DNA of 64,000 bases, from assembly GCA_033344875.1 (NCBI GenBank), contig JAWPMO010000001.1, positions 3,807,595-3,871,594 on the forward strand, written 5' to 3'. Under the pieces are notes generated by a model. The model did no database searches. It was given only the letters and a program-made list of their open reading frames with translations, and was not told the origin of the DNA. The position numbers and the translations under genes were made by a program. Shown piece after piece: positions 5,296 through 42,132 of the stretch (position 1 is its first letter; every line of letters starts with the position of its first letter). Source of the DNA: Ilumatobacteraceae bacterium. GTDB lineage: Bacteria; Actinomycetota; Acidimicrobiia; Acidimicrobiales; Ilumatobacteraceae.

Positions 5296-5433
5296 GGGTA
5301 GCTCCTCTGGAATTCTGTCTCAAGGTCTGGCGTCGGCGCGTCGATAACACGTTGTCCGACCGACAACGCCGGGCCACAACGATGTGGCGGGAACCTCCGA
5401 CCGGCATCTGGGACAAACGGTCGGTCAGATCTC

Positions 5434-37849: not shown

Positions 37850-37998
37850 GAGTGCGCGAGGTTAACGGCGCGCCGGCCCGGTTGCGGCGCGCCACCCGGC
37901 CCTTCGGTGGGACGAGCGCCTCAAGATGCGTGGCCTCGGACCCGATAACCGTCTCGAACGACGGGTTTCCGTCGCGCGGACTGACGGACAGCAGCCTC
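37850..37998 (+). other. Leader or control region between divergent genes
   Basis: About 150 bp separate the FKBP gene from the membrane protein start at 37999. On the plus strand there are two short stems, CCGTC...GACGG at about 37950-37966 and again at about 37970-37990, and a GGCGCGCC repeat. A structured leader is possible but no known riboswitch was recognised. Confidence 0.3.
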
Positions 37999-39033
37999 AT
38001 GGCGACACGGGTGAGCACAAGCGGGAGGACGGATGGGGTTCCTCTCACGCGCACCCGCCGACGGGTCGCAGGTTGCCTCCTCGGCCTCGGTGGCGTCGCC
38101 CTGCTCGTCTGGCTCGCGTGGAGGGTCGCCACGCTCGACGCCCACCTCGTCGCGATCGTCACGCTGTTGATCGAGTTGTCGGGTTGGACCGGTGGTGTCG
38201 CCGTCGCCGTCGGCCTGCTGACCGCGACGACGCCGCGTGCGGTGCTGCAACCCGACGAGACCTACCGGTACGCCGTCGTCGTGGCCGACCGTGTCGGCCG
38301 CACCCGGTCGACCGACTTGCACCACGACCTCCGCGCAGCGGTCGAACGCCTCACCACCCGCACCGCCGGTGGACCCGCCGACCGGGCGATGATCGGCGTG
38401 CTGACCGACGGGCCGCGGCGGATCGCGCTCGTCGCGACGCTCACGCTCGCGCTGCTGCTCGGTGTCGCACCGCTCGAGGTCCCGCCCGTCTGGGCGCTCG
38501 TCGCGTTCGGTGCCGGCACGATGCTGATCGCTGCATCCCACGTCGTCGCGTCCGACGGCCGGATCCGTTTCGGTGACCGGACCCGCTGGTCGTTCGCGAC
38601 ACTCGGCGAGGTGTTCTCGCCCGCCGACCGAGCCGGTCAGGCGCCGCGCCGGTGGGTGGGCACGGTCGGAACGATCGTCGTGCTGAACCTGGCGATCGCA
38701 CTTCGCGGCATGAGCGACCGTTGGACCCACGGCTTGCCGGCGATGACCGACGACGAACGACTGGTCGCGATGGTCTGGGCCGGCCTGCTGGTACTCGGAG
38801 GTCTCTACACCCTGCGCACGACTCCGTCGCCGCAGCTCGGCAACGCCCATCTCGTCTCACGTCGCCTCGAGGAGCGAACGGCTCGTCAGTCAGCGCTCGG
38901 CGCTGCGGTGTGCCTCGGACTCGTCGGCCTGTTCGCCGGGGTCCTCCCCGGGAGCGTCGACCCCGGTGCGGACGACCCCATTCGGGTCGAAACGCCGGCG
39001 CAGATCGAAGCGGGCGGTGGCGTCGGTGGTTGA
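37999..39033 (+). CDS. Polytopic membrane protein of unknown function
   Basis: A protein of about 344 residues with five or six hydrophobic segments (e.g., VAGCLLGLGGVALLVWLAW, HLVAIVTLLIELSGWTGGVA and VGTIVVLNLAIALRG). A middle polar region (ETYRYAVVVADRVG, RRIALVAT) could be cytoplasmic. No family recognised. The ATG at 37999 is used; a longer GTG-started form from 37852 has no better support. The last 144 nt overlap antisense to the histidine phosphatase gene, an unusually long convergent overlap. Confidence 0.6.
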   Translation: MATRVSTSGRTDGVPLTRTRRRVAGCLLGLGGVALLVWLAWRVATLDAHLVAIVTLLIELSGWTGGVAVAVGLLTATTPRAVLQPDETYRYAVVVADRVGRTRSTDLHHDLRAAVERLTTRTAGGPADRAMIGVLTDGPRRIALVATLTLALLLGVAPLEVPPVWALVAFGAGTMLIAASHVVASDGRIRFGDRTRWSFATLGEVFSPADRAGQAPRRWVGTVGTIVVLNLAIALRGMSDRWTHGLPAMTDDERLVAMVWAGLLVLGGLYTLRTTPSPQLGNAHLVSRRLEERTARQSALGAAVCLGLVGLFAGVLPGSVDPGADDPIRVETPAQIEAGGGVGG

Positions 39034-39582
39034 CGTGTCGACCGAGATCCAGACCCCACCGAGATTCGGGACACGTTCGTCGACCCAGCCGAGATGGCGG
39101 ATGATGGTGCGGATCACGCCCGAGTGGGTGGTCACGACCACGGCGCCGGTGTCGGGTGACGACCGACGTGCGATCGTGAGGAGCGCCTCGCTCGCGCGCT
39201 CGATCACGTGTTCCGCCGACTCGAACGTCGGTGGCCGTCGGTGCTCGGCGAGGAAACCCGGATACGCAGCGTCGATCTGGTCGGGGGTCATGCCCTGCCA
39301 TTCGCCGGCGTCGGCTTCACGGAGTCGCTCGTCGAGCCGCACGTCGCCGAGCCCGAGATGTGCGGCGATGATCTCGCCGGTCTCGGCGGCCCGGGCGAGC
39401 GGACTCGACCACACGGACTGGAACCGGTCGCCGGTCGCCGCCAGAGCGGCGGCTGCGTCGACCGCCTGCCGGCGACCCAGATCGTCGAGCGGTGAGTCGG
39501 CGAGACCCTGCCACCGGCGGATCGCGTTCCACTCGCTCTGCCCGTGTCGCAGCAGCAACAACGACACGAACCTGGCGACCAT
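38890..39582 (-). CDS. Histidine phosphatase superfamily protein
   Basis: A 230-residue phosphoglycerate mutase-like enzyme. LLLLRHGQSEWN holds the catalytic RHG histidine, SSPLARAAETGEIIA and the GEWQGM segment match the family, and VVTTHSGVIRTIIRHL has the second conserved histidine. The C-terminal 50 residues are polar, variable, and overlap the convergent membrane protein gene; they may be dispensable. TACCCT lies 8 nt before the ATG at 39582. A relative of this family (gpm1) lies near mshA in mycobacteria, which fits this neighbourhood. The substrate is unknown. Confidence 0.8.
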   Translation of the reverse strand: MVARFVSLLLLRHGQSEWNAIRRWQGLADSPLDDLGRRQAVDAAAALAATGDRFQSVWSSPLARAAETGEIIAAHLGLGDVRLDERLREADAGEWQGMTPDQIDAAYPGFLAEHRRPPTFESAEHVIERASEALLTIARRSSPDTGAVVVTTHSGVIRTIIRHLGWVDERVPNLGGVWISVDTSTTDATARFDLRRRFDPNGVVRTGVDAPGEDPGEQADESEAHRSAER

Positions 39583-39619: not shown

Positions 39620-39856
39620 ATGGCTCAGGTTCGCCTCTTCGCTGCAGCGCGTGATGCCGCGGGCACCGGTCGTGACGAGCTGCCCGGTGAGACGGTCGGC
39701 GACGTCCTCGAATGTGCGCGGGAGCGATACGGATCGACGTTCGACGCCGTGCTCGGCACCTGCCGAATCTGGGTGAACGGCGAACCGGCCGATGCGCTCG
39801 ACACCATTGGTGCAACCGACGAGCTGGCGGTCCTTCCGCCGGTGTCAGGAGGATGA
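39620..39856 (+). CDS. moaD: MoaD-like sulfur carrier protein
   Basis: A 78-residue ubiquitin-like protein ending in the essential Gly-Gly (PPVSGG), with VRLFAAARDAAGTGRDEL at the start, as in MoaD. It would carry sulfur as a thiocarboxylate for molybdopterin synthase, but no MoaE or other moa gene is in the window, so a different sulfur-carrier role cannot be ruled out. It overlaps the RsiG-like gene as ATGA. TACGCT 7 nt upstream of the ATG supports the start. Confidence 0.78.
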   Translation: MAQVRLFAAARDAAGTGRDELPGETVGDVLECARERYGSTFDAVLGTCRIWVNGEPADALDTIGATDELAVLPPVSGG

Positions 39857-40347
39857 TCGTGAACGCAACCGACCCACAGGCGCTGTCCCTCGACGAACTG
39901 CGAACGCTCCGCAACGAACTGCAGAGCGAAGACGACGTCGTGTCGTACGTCCGCCGGGTCGCGCAGGCGCGGCTCGACCTCGTCCGTGCCGAGTCCCACC
40001 GCCGCGAGCGAGGCGAGACCCACGAAGACCTGTCGAGCGAGCTGCGTGTCGTGCTCTCGAGCCATCTGACCGGCGGGCCGCCCCGGCCGCCTCGTCCGGT
40101 CGAGAACCTCGACGACAACGAACTCTCCGACCGGCTCGACAAGGTGTGCGCCGAACACGGATTCAGCCGGCTCGAGGAACTGATGCCGAGCGAACTCCAG
40201 AACCTCGACGAGCAGTTGACCGCATTCGAGCGCCAGGTCTCCGATGACCGGCGCGAGCGGTACGAACGCCTCGACGCCCTGAGCGCCGAACTCGTCCGTC
40301 GCTACCGCGATGGCGAAGCCTCGGTCGACGGTCTGCTGGGCGGCTGA
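39853..40347 (+). CDS. RsiG-like single-motif candidate c-di-GMP-binding anti-sigma factor
   Basis: A 164-residue helical protein without membrane segments. Residues 27-42 spell D-x3-S-x2-R-x3-Q-x3-D (SYVRRVAQARLDLV lies within it), close to the E-x3-S-x2-R-x3-Q-x3-D motif with which Streptomyces RsiG binds cyclic di-GMP; the first position is Asp27, and Glu26 is adjacent. Streptomyces RsiG has two copies, on two helices; here only one is seen, as I recall for ancestral forms that bind as homodimers. The C-terminal helix (ALSAELVRRYRDGEASVDGL) also resembles the family. No cognate sigma gene is in the window. AGGAGG precedes the ATG. Confidence 0.6.
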   Translation: MIVNATDPQALSLDELRTLRNELQSEDDVVSYVRRVAQARLDLVRAESHRRERGETHEDLSSELRVVLSSHLTGGPPRPPRPVENLDDNELSDRLDKVCAEHGFSRLEELMPSELQNLDEQLTAFERQVSDDRRERYERLDALSAELVRRYRDGEASVDGLLGG

Positions 40348-40348
40348 C

Positions 40349-40738
40349 ATGTCGCCCGGCGACGAGTCGGACGACGCCGGGCCGTCGTCGGATCACGGAC
40401 GGTCGCCGATCGATCCGCTCGACGTCGGATCGTTCATCCGCTCGCAGCGCGAACGCGCCGAGATTTCGATCCGCAAGCTGGCCGAACTCGCCGACGTCTC
40501 CAACCCGTACCTCTCGCAGATCGAGCGCGGGCTGCGCAAGCCGTCGGCCGACGTGCTGCAGCAGGTCGCCACGGCGCTCCGGATCAGCGTCGAGTCGCTC
40601 TACGTGCGCGCCGGGATCCTGCCCGACGAGGGTCGTGGCGTGAGCACGGTGTCCGAGGCGATCGAGCACGACCCCGACCTGACGCCCGAGCAGAAATCCG
40701 CGTTGCTCAACGTGTACGAGAGCTTCCTCGCCCAGTAG
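40349..40738 (+). CDS. XRE-family helix-turn-helix regulator
   Basis: A 129-residue protein. After an acidic tail of 25 residues, residues 28-85 form an XRE helix-turn-helix: FIRSQRERAEISIRKLAE, VSNPYLSQIERGLRKPS and LQQVATALRISVESLYVR. The C-terminal part (TPEQKSALLNVYESFL) is a short helix and probably a dimer or partner contact. It begins 1 bp after the RsiG-like gene, so the two are likely co-transcribed and perhaps act in one regulatory circuit. Targets are unknown. Confidence 0.82.
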   Translation: MSPGDESDDAGPSSDHGRSPIDPLDVGSFIRSQRERAEISIRKLAELADVSNPYLSQIERGLRKPSADVLQQVATALRISVESLYVRAGILPDEGRGVSTVSEAIEHDPDLTPEQKSALLNVYESFLAQ

Positions 40739-40917: not shown

Positions 40918-42132
40918 ATGCGTCGCGTTGCTGTCATCTCCCTCCACACGTCACCGCTGCTGCAGCCCGGGTCGGGCGACAGCGGCGGCATGAACGTGTA
41001 CGTGCGAGAGATGGTCTCGTCGTTGTCGCAGGCCGGGCTCGAGTGCACCACGTACACCCGGGCGGATCGTGACGACCTGCCGCCCGAGGTCTGGGTCGAG
41101 CCCAACCACCGTGTGGTCTACATCGAGGCAGGTCCCCACCACCTCCCGAAAGAAGCGCTGCCCGAGATCGTCGACGAGTTCACCGACCGGGTGCTCGAAG
41201 ATCTCGCCCGCAACGGTGGCGCCGACGTGGTGCACGCCAATTACTGGCTGAGCGGCGTCGTCGCCCACCGGATCAAACACGAGCTCGACATCCCGTTCGT
41301 CTCCACGTTCCACACGTTGGCGCGCGTCAAGGCCGAGGGCGGCGACCCCGAACCGGGTTGGCGCGACCGTGCCGAGGCCGAGCTGATCAATTGCGCCGAC
41401 GCGATCTGCGTCAGCTGCGTCGAAGAAGAGCAGCAGTTCCGGCGGCTCTACGGCGACCCGCAGGGGCAGATCGAGATCGTCGCGCCCGGCGTCGAGCACG
41501 CATTCTTCGCCCCGGGCGACCAGGGCGGGGCGCGAGCCGCGCTCGACCTGCCGGCCGATGTCCCGGTGATACTGTTCGTCGGACGGATCCAGCCGCTGAA
41601 GGGTCCCGACGTCGCGATCCGGGCGCTGCACGCGCTCGGTCGGTCCGACGCCCTGCTCCTCGTGGTCGGCGGTGCCAGTGGGTCCGACGGCGACACCGAG
41701 ATCGCACGCGCGCACCAGCTCGTCGACGAACTCGGCCTGCACGACCAGGTCCGGTTCGTGCCGCCCCAACCGCACCACATCCTGTCGACGTACTACCGGT
41801 CCGCCGACGTGGTCGTCGTGCCCAGCCGCAGCGAGAGCTTCGGGCTCGTGGCGCTCGAAGCGGCGGCGTGCGGCATCCCCGTCGTCGCGAGCGCCGTCGG
41901 CGGTTTGCTGTCGCTGGTCGACGACGGCGAGACCGGTTTCCTGATCCCCGACCGCGACCCCACCCGGTTCGCCAAGGCGATCGGGCAGATCCTCGACGAA
42001 CCGCTGCTCGCGGCGTCGATGTCGCAGGCGTCGGCCGATCGTGCGGCTCGGTACACGTGGGGCTTCGCCGCAGCCCGCCTGCGTCGCCTGTACTCCGACC
42101 TGACCGCCCGTCAACTCGTCCTCGGTGAGTGA
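40918..42132 (+). CDS. mshA: D-inositol-3-phosphate glycosyltransferase (mycothiol synthesis)
   Basis: A 404-residue GT-B glycosyltransferase (GT4). The N-terminus RRVAVISLHTSPLLQPGSGD followed by SGGMNVYVREM is diagnostic of MshA, which joins UDP-GlcNAc to 1L-myo-inositol-1-phosphate in the first step of mycothiol synthesis. The nucleotide-sugar region is SRSESFGLVALEAAACGIPV with the E-x7-E motif, and VGRIQPLKGPDVAIRAL is the phosphate loop. TAGCGT lies 11 nt before the ATG at 40918, making it the preferred start over 40885. A YbjN-type gene follows, as at mycobacterial mshA loci. Confidence 0.92.
   Translation: MRRVAVISLHTSPLLQPGSGDSGGMNVYVREMVSSLSQAGLECTTYTRADRDDLPPEVWVEPNHRVVYIEAGPHHLPKEALPEIVDEFTDRVLEDLARNGGADVVHANYWLSGVVAHRIKHELDIPFVSTFHTLARVKAEGGDPEPGWRDRAEAELINCADAICVSCVEEEQQFRRLYGDPQGQIEIVAPGVEHAFFAPGDQGGARAALDLPADVPVILFVGRIQPLKGPDVAIRALHALGRSDALLLVVGGASGSDGDTEIARAHQLVDELGLHDQVRFVPPQPHHILSTYYRSADVVVVPSRSESFGLVALEAAACGIPVVASAVGGLLSLVDDGETGFLIPDRDPTRFAKAIGQILDEPLLAASMSQASADRAARYTWGFAAARLRRLYSDLTARQLVLGE

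Follow-up and report, generated by a model that had tools for sequence, protein, structure and literature searches.

The question raised by this locus is whether a short gene of an Ilumatobacteraceae bacterium encodes a c-di-GMP sensor of the RsiG type and, if so, which form of RsiG it is and which sigma factor and genes it might control. The window, the whole stretch of DNA analyzed, comprises 64,000 nucleotides (G000:C1:3807595-3871594) of a genome assembled as one contig of 4,968,626 bases that is 99.65% complete. A preliminary description of the window had pointed to an open reading frame at positions 39853 to 40347 with the motif D27-S31-R34-Q38-D42 and had named its product an RsiG-like c-di-GMP sensor. 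Both the frame and the motif are present in the sequence, and the assignment to RsiG is borne out by the family profile, by sequence matches to RsiG in the PDB, and by structural matches to RsiG chains.

Identity of the rsiG product

The product of rsiG (39853..40347, forward strand; 164 amino acids) scored 77 bits with the RsiG family PF22802 (cut-off 27, E=9.2e-22, Pfam scan); this is the profile comparison that the preliminary description had proposed. At E<=0.001 the genome contained two PF22802 matches, both of which we assign to the rsiG frame, one per half; the listing gave one place and a count of two. NCBIfam models gave no RsiG match. The top PDB sequence match was S. venezuelae RsiG (AmfC protein, 6pfj), with E=2.8e-15 over residues 9 to 162. 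Among the best 80 of 577 confirmed relatives, the nearest named ones were Ilumatobacter MAGs, with 81% identity. It is close to certain that the gene encodes an RsiG.

Two c-di-GMP motifs in one protein

The preliminary description had found only one copy of the c-di-GMP motif. A second copy, E126-x3-S130-x2-R133-x3-Y137-x3-D141, lies in the second half of the protein (40228..40275, forward strand), where conservation and the structural model place it on the second long helix (residues 112 to 152), and PF22802 matches both halves. This copy was overlooked because a tyrosine, Y137, stands in for its glutamine. The first copy, D27-S31-R34-Q38-D42 (39931..39978, forward strand), is placed on the helix of residues 13 to 52 by sequence, conservation, and the model. 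Eight of the ten motif residues agree exactly with E(X)3S(X)2R(X)3[Q/H](X)3D, the departures from the published consensus being E to D at 27 and Q to Y at 137.

Conservation was evaluated in an alignment in which the best 80 of 577 confirmed relatives were placed with the S. venezuelae segment and the window protein (82 rows). The pattern used to scan for relatives required S31, R34, and Q38, and those columns are therefore biased, whereas motif 2 was not used in selection. Within motif 1, position 27 was E in 61 rows, D in 18, and A in 3; S31, R34, and Q38 were present in all 82; and position 42 was D in 81 and E in 1. Within motif 2, E126, S130, and R133 were present in all 82 rows, position 137 was F in 35, H in 30, Q in 14, and Y in 3, and position 141 was D in 79, N in 2, and A in 1. 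A second alignment combined the window protein with 50 loci from a search of the class (43 distinct sequences, duplicates kept). Its serines and arginines were invariant in both motifs, with E (38), D (12), or A (1) at position 27, Q (40) or H (11) at 38, and F (24), H (19), Q (7), or Y (1) at 137.

One possibility is that RsiG binds WhiG but that E27D and Q137Y have abolished or weakened the control by c-di-GMP, leaving a constitutive or differently tuned anti-sigma factor. Both substitutions are real. The published text (PMC8325347) mentions a single departure from the consensus, Q to H in motif 1; D in that motif and an F, H, or Y in motif 2 exceed the variation named there. With two of its motif positions off the consensus, the protein could differ in affinity for c-di-GMP. 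However, the glutamines stack on guanine and the serine and glutamate bind ribose (PMC8325347), and for this reason D27, which still offers a carboxylate, and an F, H, or Y at position 137, which could stack on guanine as Q and H are said to, are plausible as workable substitutes for the c-di-GMP contacts. Furthermore, such residues at 137 are common in the lineage while E126, S130, and R133 are invariant (82 rows, best 80 of 577 relatives), and c-di-GMP enzyme domains are numerous in the genome, with 23 GGDEF and 15 EAL profile matches. A loss or weakening of c-di-GMP control thus appears improbable. Twin-motif RsiG proteins with F in motif 2 were also present in records titled Nitriliruptoraceae (L162, L181, L187, and L198).

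Gene neighborhood

The spacing of the genes is as the preliminary description had given it. The sequence ATGA at 39853 to 39856 forms a 4-base overlap between rsiG and the preceding ThiS/MoaD-family sulfur carrier gene (39620..39856, forward strand; PF02597, E=2.7e-10; below the NCBIfam moaD cut-offs). The ATG at 39853 gives this overlap, but an AGGAGG just 5' is better spaced for a GTG at 39859, which may be an alternative start that yields a protein two residues shorter. One base past the rsiG stop begins a gene for an XRE-family helix-turn-helix regulator (40349..40738, forward strand), the product of which matched HTH_3 (PF01381; 50.6 bits against a cut-off of 23, E=2e-13). Farther downstream, what we take to be an MshA-like glycosyltransferase gene (40918..42132, forward strand) was, by gene order in relatives, the most constant downstream neighbor of rsiG.

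Two sets of loci were compared, one of 20 family and order loci and one of 80 named relatives (best 80 of 577; contig ends disregarded). In the first set, all 20 loci had the MshA-like gene downstream of rsiG; in the second, 62 of the 80 loci had it on the rsiG strand no more than 5 kb away. A MoaD match ended no more than 60 bases from the rsiG match in all 15 family loci.

The preliminary description had treated the XRE gene as part of the RsiG system, and RsiG and the XRE regulator might then form one dedicated regulatory pair. The one-base spacing in the window is consistent with this, as is the presence of an XRE gene on the same strand within 400 bases behind rsiG in 35 of the 80 loci (best 80 of 577), at 400 to 2500 bases in 10, and overlapping the rsiG frame in 4. 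However, in the remaining 31 of the 80 it was elsewhere or not found, and it was present between rsiG and mshA in 10 of the 20 family and order loci and missing in the other 10. In the Streptacidiphilus loci L197 and L201, where YbjN-, MshA-, and XRE-like genes lie on the other strand within 10 kb of rsiG, the XRE gene, 55% identical, is about 9.8 kb away beside the MshA- and YbjN-like genes. Eight of nine Streptomyces loci show no such neighbors; the ninth (L207) has MoaD and XRE matches 7 to 10 kb off. The XRE gene is probably a frequent neighbor within a common gene order rather than a dedicated partner of RsiG, and we regard a dedicated pair as unlikely. We set aside the lead that the XRE gene may be the Rv0474-like gene near mycobacterial mshA. 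Two contigs with an Acidimicrobiia-like rsiG neighborhood, L148 (titled 'Bifidobacterium breve') and L193 (titled 'Acidobacteria bacterium'), are probably mislabeled or derived from mixed bins.

Predicted fold and form of RsiG

An AlphaFold2 model of the protein (46 sequences; mean pLDDT 86.9) has an antiparallel coiled-coil RsiG fold with both motif-bearing helices, residues 13 to 52 and 112 to 152, in one chain. The top four Foldseek matches of this model in the PDB were S. venezuelae RsiG chains (6pfv/6pfj; E 9.7e-07 to 3.4e-05, TM-scores 0.71 to 0.77, probability 1.00), and the next match had an E-value of 1.1. The window protein resembles S. venezuelae RsiG (AmfC, 6PFJ/6PFV) in its two motif helices, antiparallel coiled coil, similar length, and C-terminal RRYRxGEAxVDxLL, and differs from it in having D27 for E in motif 1 and Y137 for Q in motif 2.

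These features bear on the suggestion of the preliminary description that the protein is a single-motif, ancestral RsiG that works as a homodimer. Motif 1 is close to consensus by eye, and residues 7 to 53, with the first motif helix, match R. radiotolerans RsiG (PDB 7LQ2-7LQ4; E 7e-05). However, chains of this type match no more than residues 7 to 54, whereas sequence and predicted structure fit twin-motif RsiG over nearly the full length. Unlike the R. radiotolerans homodimer, the window protein has its two motifs on a single chain. The helix equivalent to alpha5, which single-motif RsiG lacks, is present as residues 112 to 152, and its E, S, and R are kept in 82 of 82 rows (best 80 of 577 relatives). 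The alignment and the model, which give two motif helices as in Streptomyces RsiG, thus contradict the homodimer form, and we consider it highly improbable.

Twin-motif RsiG is not new in this bacterial group: PMC8325347 counted it in three of four Acidimicrobiales species, in a section limited to counts. The idea in the preliminary description that the c-di-GMP/anti-sigma switch extends beyond sporulating actinobacteria is already published for Rubrobacter, in the paper that gives these counts. A phosphodiesterase that keeps RsiG from WhiG has also been described (PMC13232838). For WhiG in Ilumatobacter, we found no prior work in the open-licence PMC literature.

A WhiG-type sigma factor and its co-occurrence with RsiG

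The preliminary description had reported no WhiG-type sigma factor in the window, and genome-wide profile searches agree, with neither a FliA_WhiG match above the cut-off nor a GGDEF match falling within G000:C1:3807595-3871594. It had also taken the absence of such a sigma factor from the genome, together with a lack of c-di-GMP binding, as evidence against its proposal. The genome search that it called for found, in addition to the 23 GGDEF matches, one WhiG-type sigma gene outside the window, at G000:C1:4605991-4606647 (262.7 bits). No other of the 15 FliA_WhiG matches exceeded the cut-off. The PDB chains nearest to this sigma factor were S. venezuelae WhiG from RsiG complexes (E 6.6e-75 and 1.2e-73), compared with 3.9e-46 for the best FliA. 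The WhiG residues that contact c-di-GMP in S. venezuelae are K57, G61, and R62 (PMC8325347). K, G, and R are kept at these positions in the genome's sigma factor, as they are in 29 of its 30 best-scoring relatives (one has S for G), and the trio was found in none of five other sigma-like proteins of the genome that were looked at. Flagellar FliA was rejected as the partner, as the sigma factor is closer to WhiG and has K/G where the FliA of 6pmi has R/L, and a profile search for FlhA gave no match in the genome. A frame that by eye resembles ribosomal protein S2 lies downstream of the whiG gene; we take an S2 gene to be a neighbor of Streptomyces whiG as well.

Among 295 genomes of the class, PF22802 was found in 193 (192 above the cut-off) and FliA_WhiG above the cut-off in 200. 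With WhiG-type sigma factors defined by E<=1e-65, a threshold chosen after the data had been seen and set in a gap of the best sigma E-values between 2e-68 and 3e-60, 185 genomes had both proteins, 8 had RsiG only, 10 had the sigma factor only, and 92 had neither. Counting the five genomes between the cut-off and E<=1e-65 as sigma-positive changes this to 186, 7, 14, and 88. The co-occurrence is strong by Fisher's test, which ignores relatedness (p 1.6e-54, 295 genomes). Within nine families (f1, f3, f4, f6, f13, f15, f35, f37, and f44) genomes with both genes are mixed with genomes that have neither, which argues for repeated joint loss of rsiG and the whiG-type sigma gene. All eight RsiG-only genomes are in more than 100 contigs, and most of the 10 sigma-only genomes are fragmented, but one (G224) has about 10 contigs. 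In two genomes, G155 and G224, a somewhat divergent FliA_WhiG-type sigma factor (E 6e-70 and 2e-69) occurs without any match to RsiG.

That motif 1 arose by chance within an unrelated coiled coil has a negligible probability: coiled coils are repetitive and kinesin coiled coils appeared in the PDB search at E about 0.1 to 0.5, but the 77-bit profile match and the near full-length match to AmfC/RsiG rule this out, and fold, motif conservation, and co-occurrence with WhiG agree with them.

Candidate promoters of the sigma factor

In R. radiotolerans the likely WhiG targets, as predicted in PMC8325347, include type IV pilus and dgc/pde genes, and the flagellar consensus given there is TAAA / GCCGATAA. 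In the genome studied here, TAAA-N13 to N17-GCCGATAA had zero perfect matches, and TAAA-N15-GCCGATAA with two mismatches allowed had 29 sites, compared with 26 for the reversed pattern. The 39.8 kb pilus region of the genome had six matches to the literature consensus, and 2 of 20 shuffled consensuses reached six or more. The literature consensus thus yielded no signal above its controls.

A different pattern, the WhiG/flagellar-type promoter-like motif TCAAG-N15-GCCGATA, was found after looking, in a scan of 159 kb surrounding the pilus ATPase genes in this genome and in six relatives. Distinct TCAAG..GCCGATA sites were counted at every spacing from 8 to 23 in 193 loci (1,964,127 bases): spacing 15 had 13, spacing 14 had 3, and the remaining 14 spacings had none. 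The loci had been selected by their rsiG, sigma, GGDEF, or pilus genes, and the set is thus no random sample; loci fetched by the pattern itself (L099-L127 and L222 upwards) were excluded. Seven of the 13 sites at spacing 15 are in the pilus loci where the motif was found and six are in rsiG loci. The shorter TCAAG..GCCGA also peaked at spacing 15 (41 sites) in the 193 loci, but with 25 at spacing 9 and 17 at spacing 12. TCAAG-N15-GCCGATA occurred exactly in 23 of 41 family genomes. The reversed pattern had 0 matches in the 41 genomes, but it contains TAG, which makes it an unfair control in coding DNA, and we therefore rely on the spacing control.

Exact sites were followed in four genomes, which together have 24 (G000 4, G002 8, G027 5, and G315 7). 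Fourteen of the 24 end 7 to 9 bases before the start codon of a frame that codes for 100 or more amino acids, a distance that would give leaderless transcripts; of 1920 random positions in eight loci, 68 satisfied this rule. The downstream proteins of 18 of the 24 sites were scanned. They included two HD_5, one GGDEF-EAL, two GGDEF, and two roadblock/LC7 proteins and one each of an OmpR-type regulator, a SpoIID-domain protein, a sugar transferase, an SdrD_B protein, and a UvrD-like helicase; six of the 18 had no match above the cut-off. The two HD_5 proteins are 64% identical to each other. Genes for GGDEF, GGDEF-EAL, or HD_5 proteins thus follow 5 of the 24 sites, with 18 of the 24 scanned, the comparison being an assumed 1% of genes. 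In each of G000, G002, and G315, one of the exact sites precedes a small gene beside the pilus cluster, and the three encoded proteins are related (52 to 59% identical). Some exact sites are likely false, such as those of L218 and L220, which are antisense to another frame upstream of a PilT-like gene.

A similar site lies close to rsiG. The one-mismatch sequence TCAAG-N15-CCCGATA (37921..37947, forward strand) is 51 bases before a gene (37999..39033, forward strand; 344 amino acids by this start) that had no Pfam match and whose product, by eye, is a membrane protein. A long match to this gene was found next to rsiG in 7 of 32 loci searched, and in all seven an exact site precedes the gene, at spacing 15 in L078, L081, L129, L135, and L137 and at spacing 14 in L128 and L130. 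The locus L132 lacks the membrane-protein gene and has an exact site directly before moaD-rsiG. Read-through from the membrane-protein gene to rsiG is not implied, because a phosphoglycerate mutase-like gene on the opposite strand (38890-39582) lies between the membrane-protein gene and moaD. A second one-mismatch site in the window, TCAAG-N15-GTCGATA (5320-5346, forward strand), is followed by a 153-amino-acid frame that looks doubtful.

Three of eight prepilin-like genes in pilus loci (L214, L219, and L221) have a one-mismatch site upstream, all with spacing 14; for each upstream stretch, none of 200 shuffles equaled this. Spacing 14 of the TCAAG form equals the published TAAA-N15 spacing (PMC8325347). 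The other five had three to four mismatches upstream, no better than shuffles. This genome has two prepilin genes outside the window (L214:4512-4934 and L214:4032-4379, both on the reverse strand). The first (Pfam N_methyl) has the site TCAAT-N14-GCCGATA, from which transcription would begin close to an ATG inside the called frame.

Proposed switch and its implications

Sequence comparison and modeling make it very likely that RsiG acts as a c-di-GMP-dependent anti-WhiG factor. We infer c-di-GMP binding, sigma binding, the direction of regulation, and the use of these promoters by WhiG as follows. RsiG would be a monomer, the two long helices of which form an antiparallel coiled coil with both motifs clasping a c-di-GMP dimer. 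Loaded RsiG would bind WhiG, encoded elsewhere on the same chromosome, and keep it off RNA polymerase; when c-di-GMP falls, WhiG would be freed to transcribe from TCAAG-N15(14)-GCCGATA promoters. Its targets would be genes for enzymes of c-di-GMP synthesis and breakdown and for roadblock proteins, pilus-linked genes and probably some of those for prepilins, and the membrane-protein gene next to rsiG. That twin-motif RsiG holds WhiG under high c-di-GMP, with a WhiG regulon expressed from these promoters, is a reading that we hold with high confidence. Judged from the promoter-like sites, the predicted regulon likely covers c-di-GMP enzymes and the membrane-protein gene; that it covers pilins is less sure.

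A broader reading is that in Acidimicrobiia without flagella, twin-motif RsiG controls WhiG to drive type IV pilus, cyclase/phosphodiesterase, and membrane genes as a feedback switch. We now give this an even chance, slightly less than before, because the pilin sites come from three of eight genes. The genome has a WhiG with the K/G/R contacts as S. venezuelae does, but unlike in S. venezuelae the likely targets in this Ilumatobacter-like genome are c-di-GMP- and pilus-linked rather than sporulation genes, and the host is presumably non-sporulating.

Published work links single-motif RsiG to pilus control, in Rubrobacter, and twin-motif RsiG to sporulation, in Streptomyces. If a twin-motif RsiG governed a regulon of pilus and c-di-GMP-enzyme genes, the form of RsiG and its function would be uncoupled. 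If the proposal is true, pilus control would be found under both forms of RsiG, which suggests that it is the older function, predating the internal duplication of RsiG, with sporulation a later use. Stacking on c-di-GMP through an aromatic residue in motif 2 would then be specific to this lineage. The outcome also supplies a promoter motif and a target list.

At L215:5810-7597 (reverse strand) lies a gene for a PilB-like ATPase whose MshEN match falls slightly short of the Pfam cut-off (22.7 versus 23.1 bits). The MshEN domain binds c-di-GMP. Given an MshEN-like PilB, pili may be controlled at two levels.
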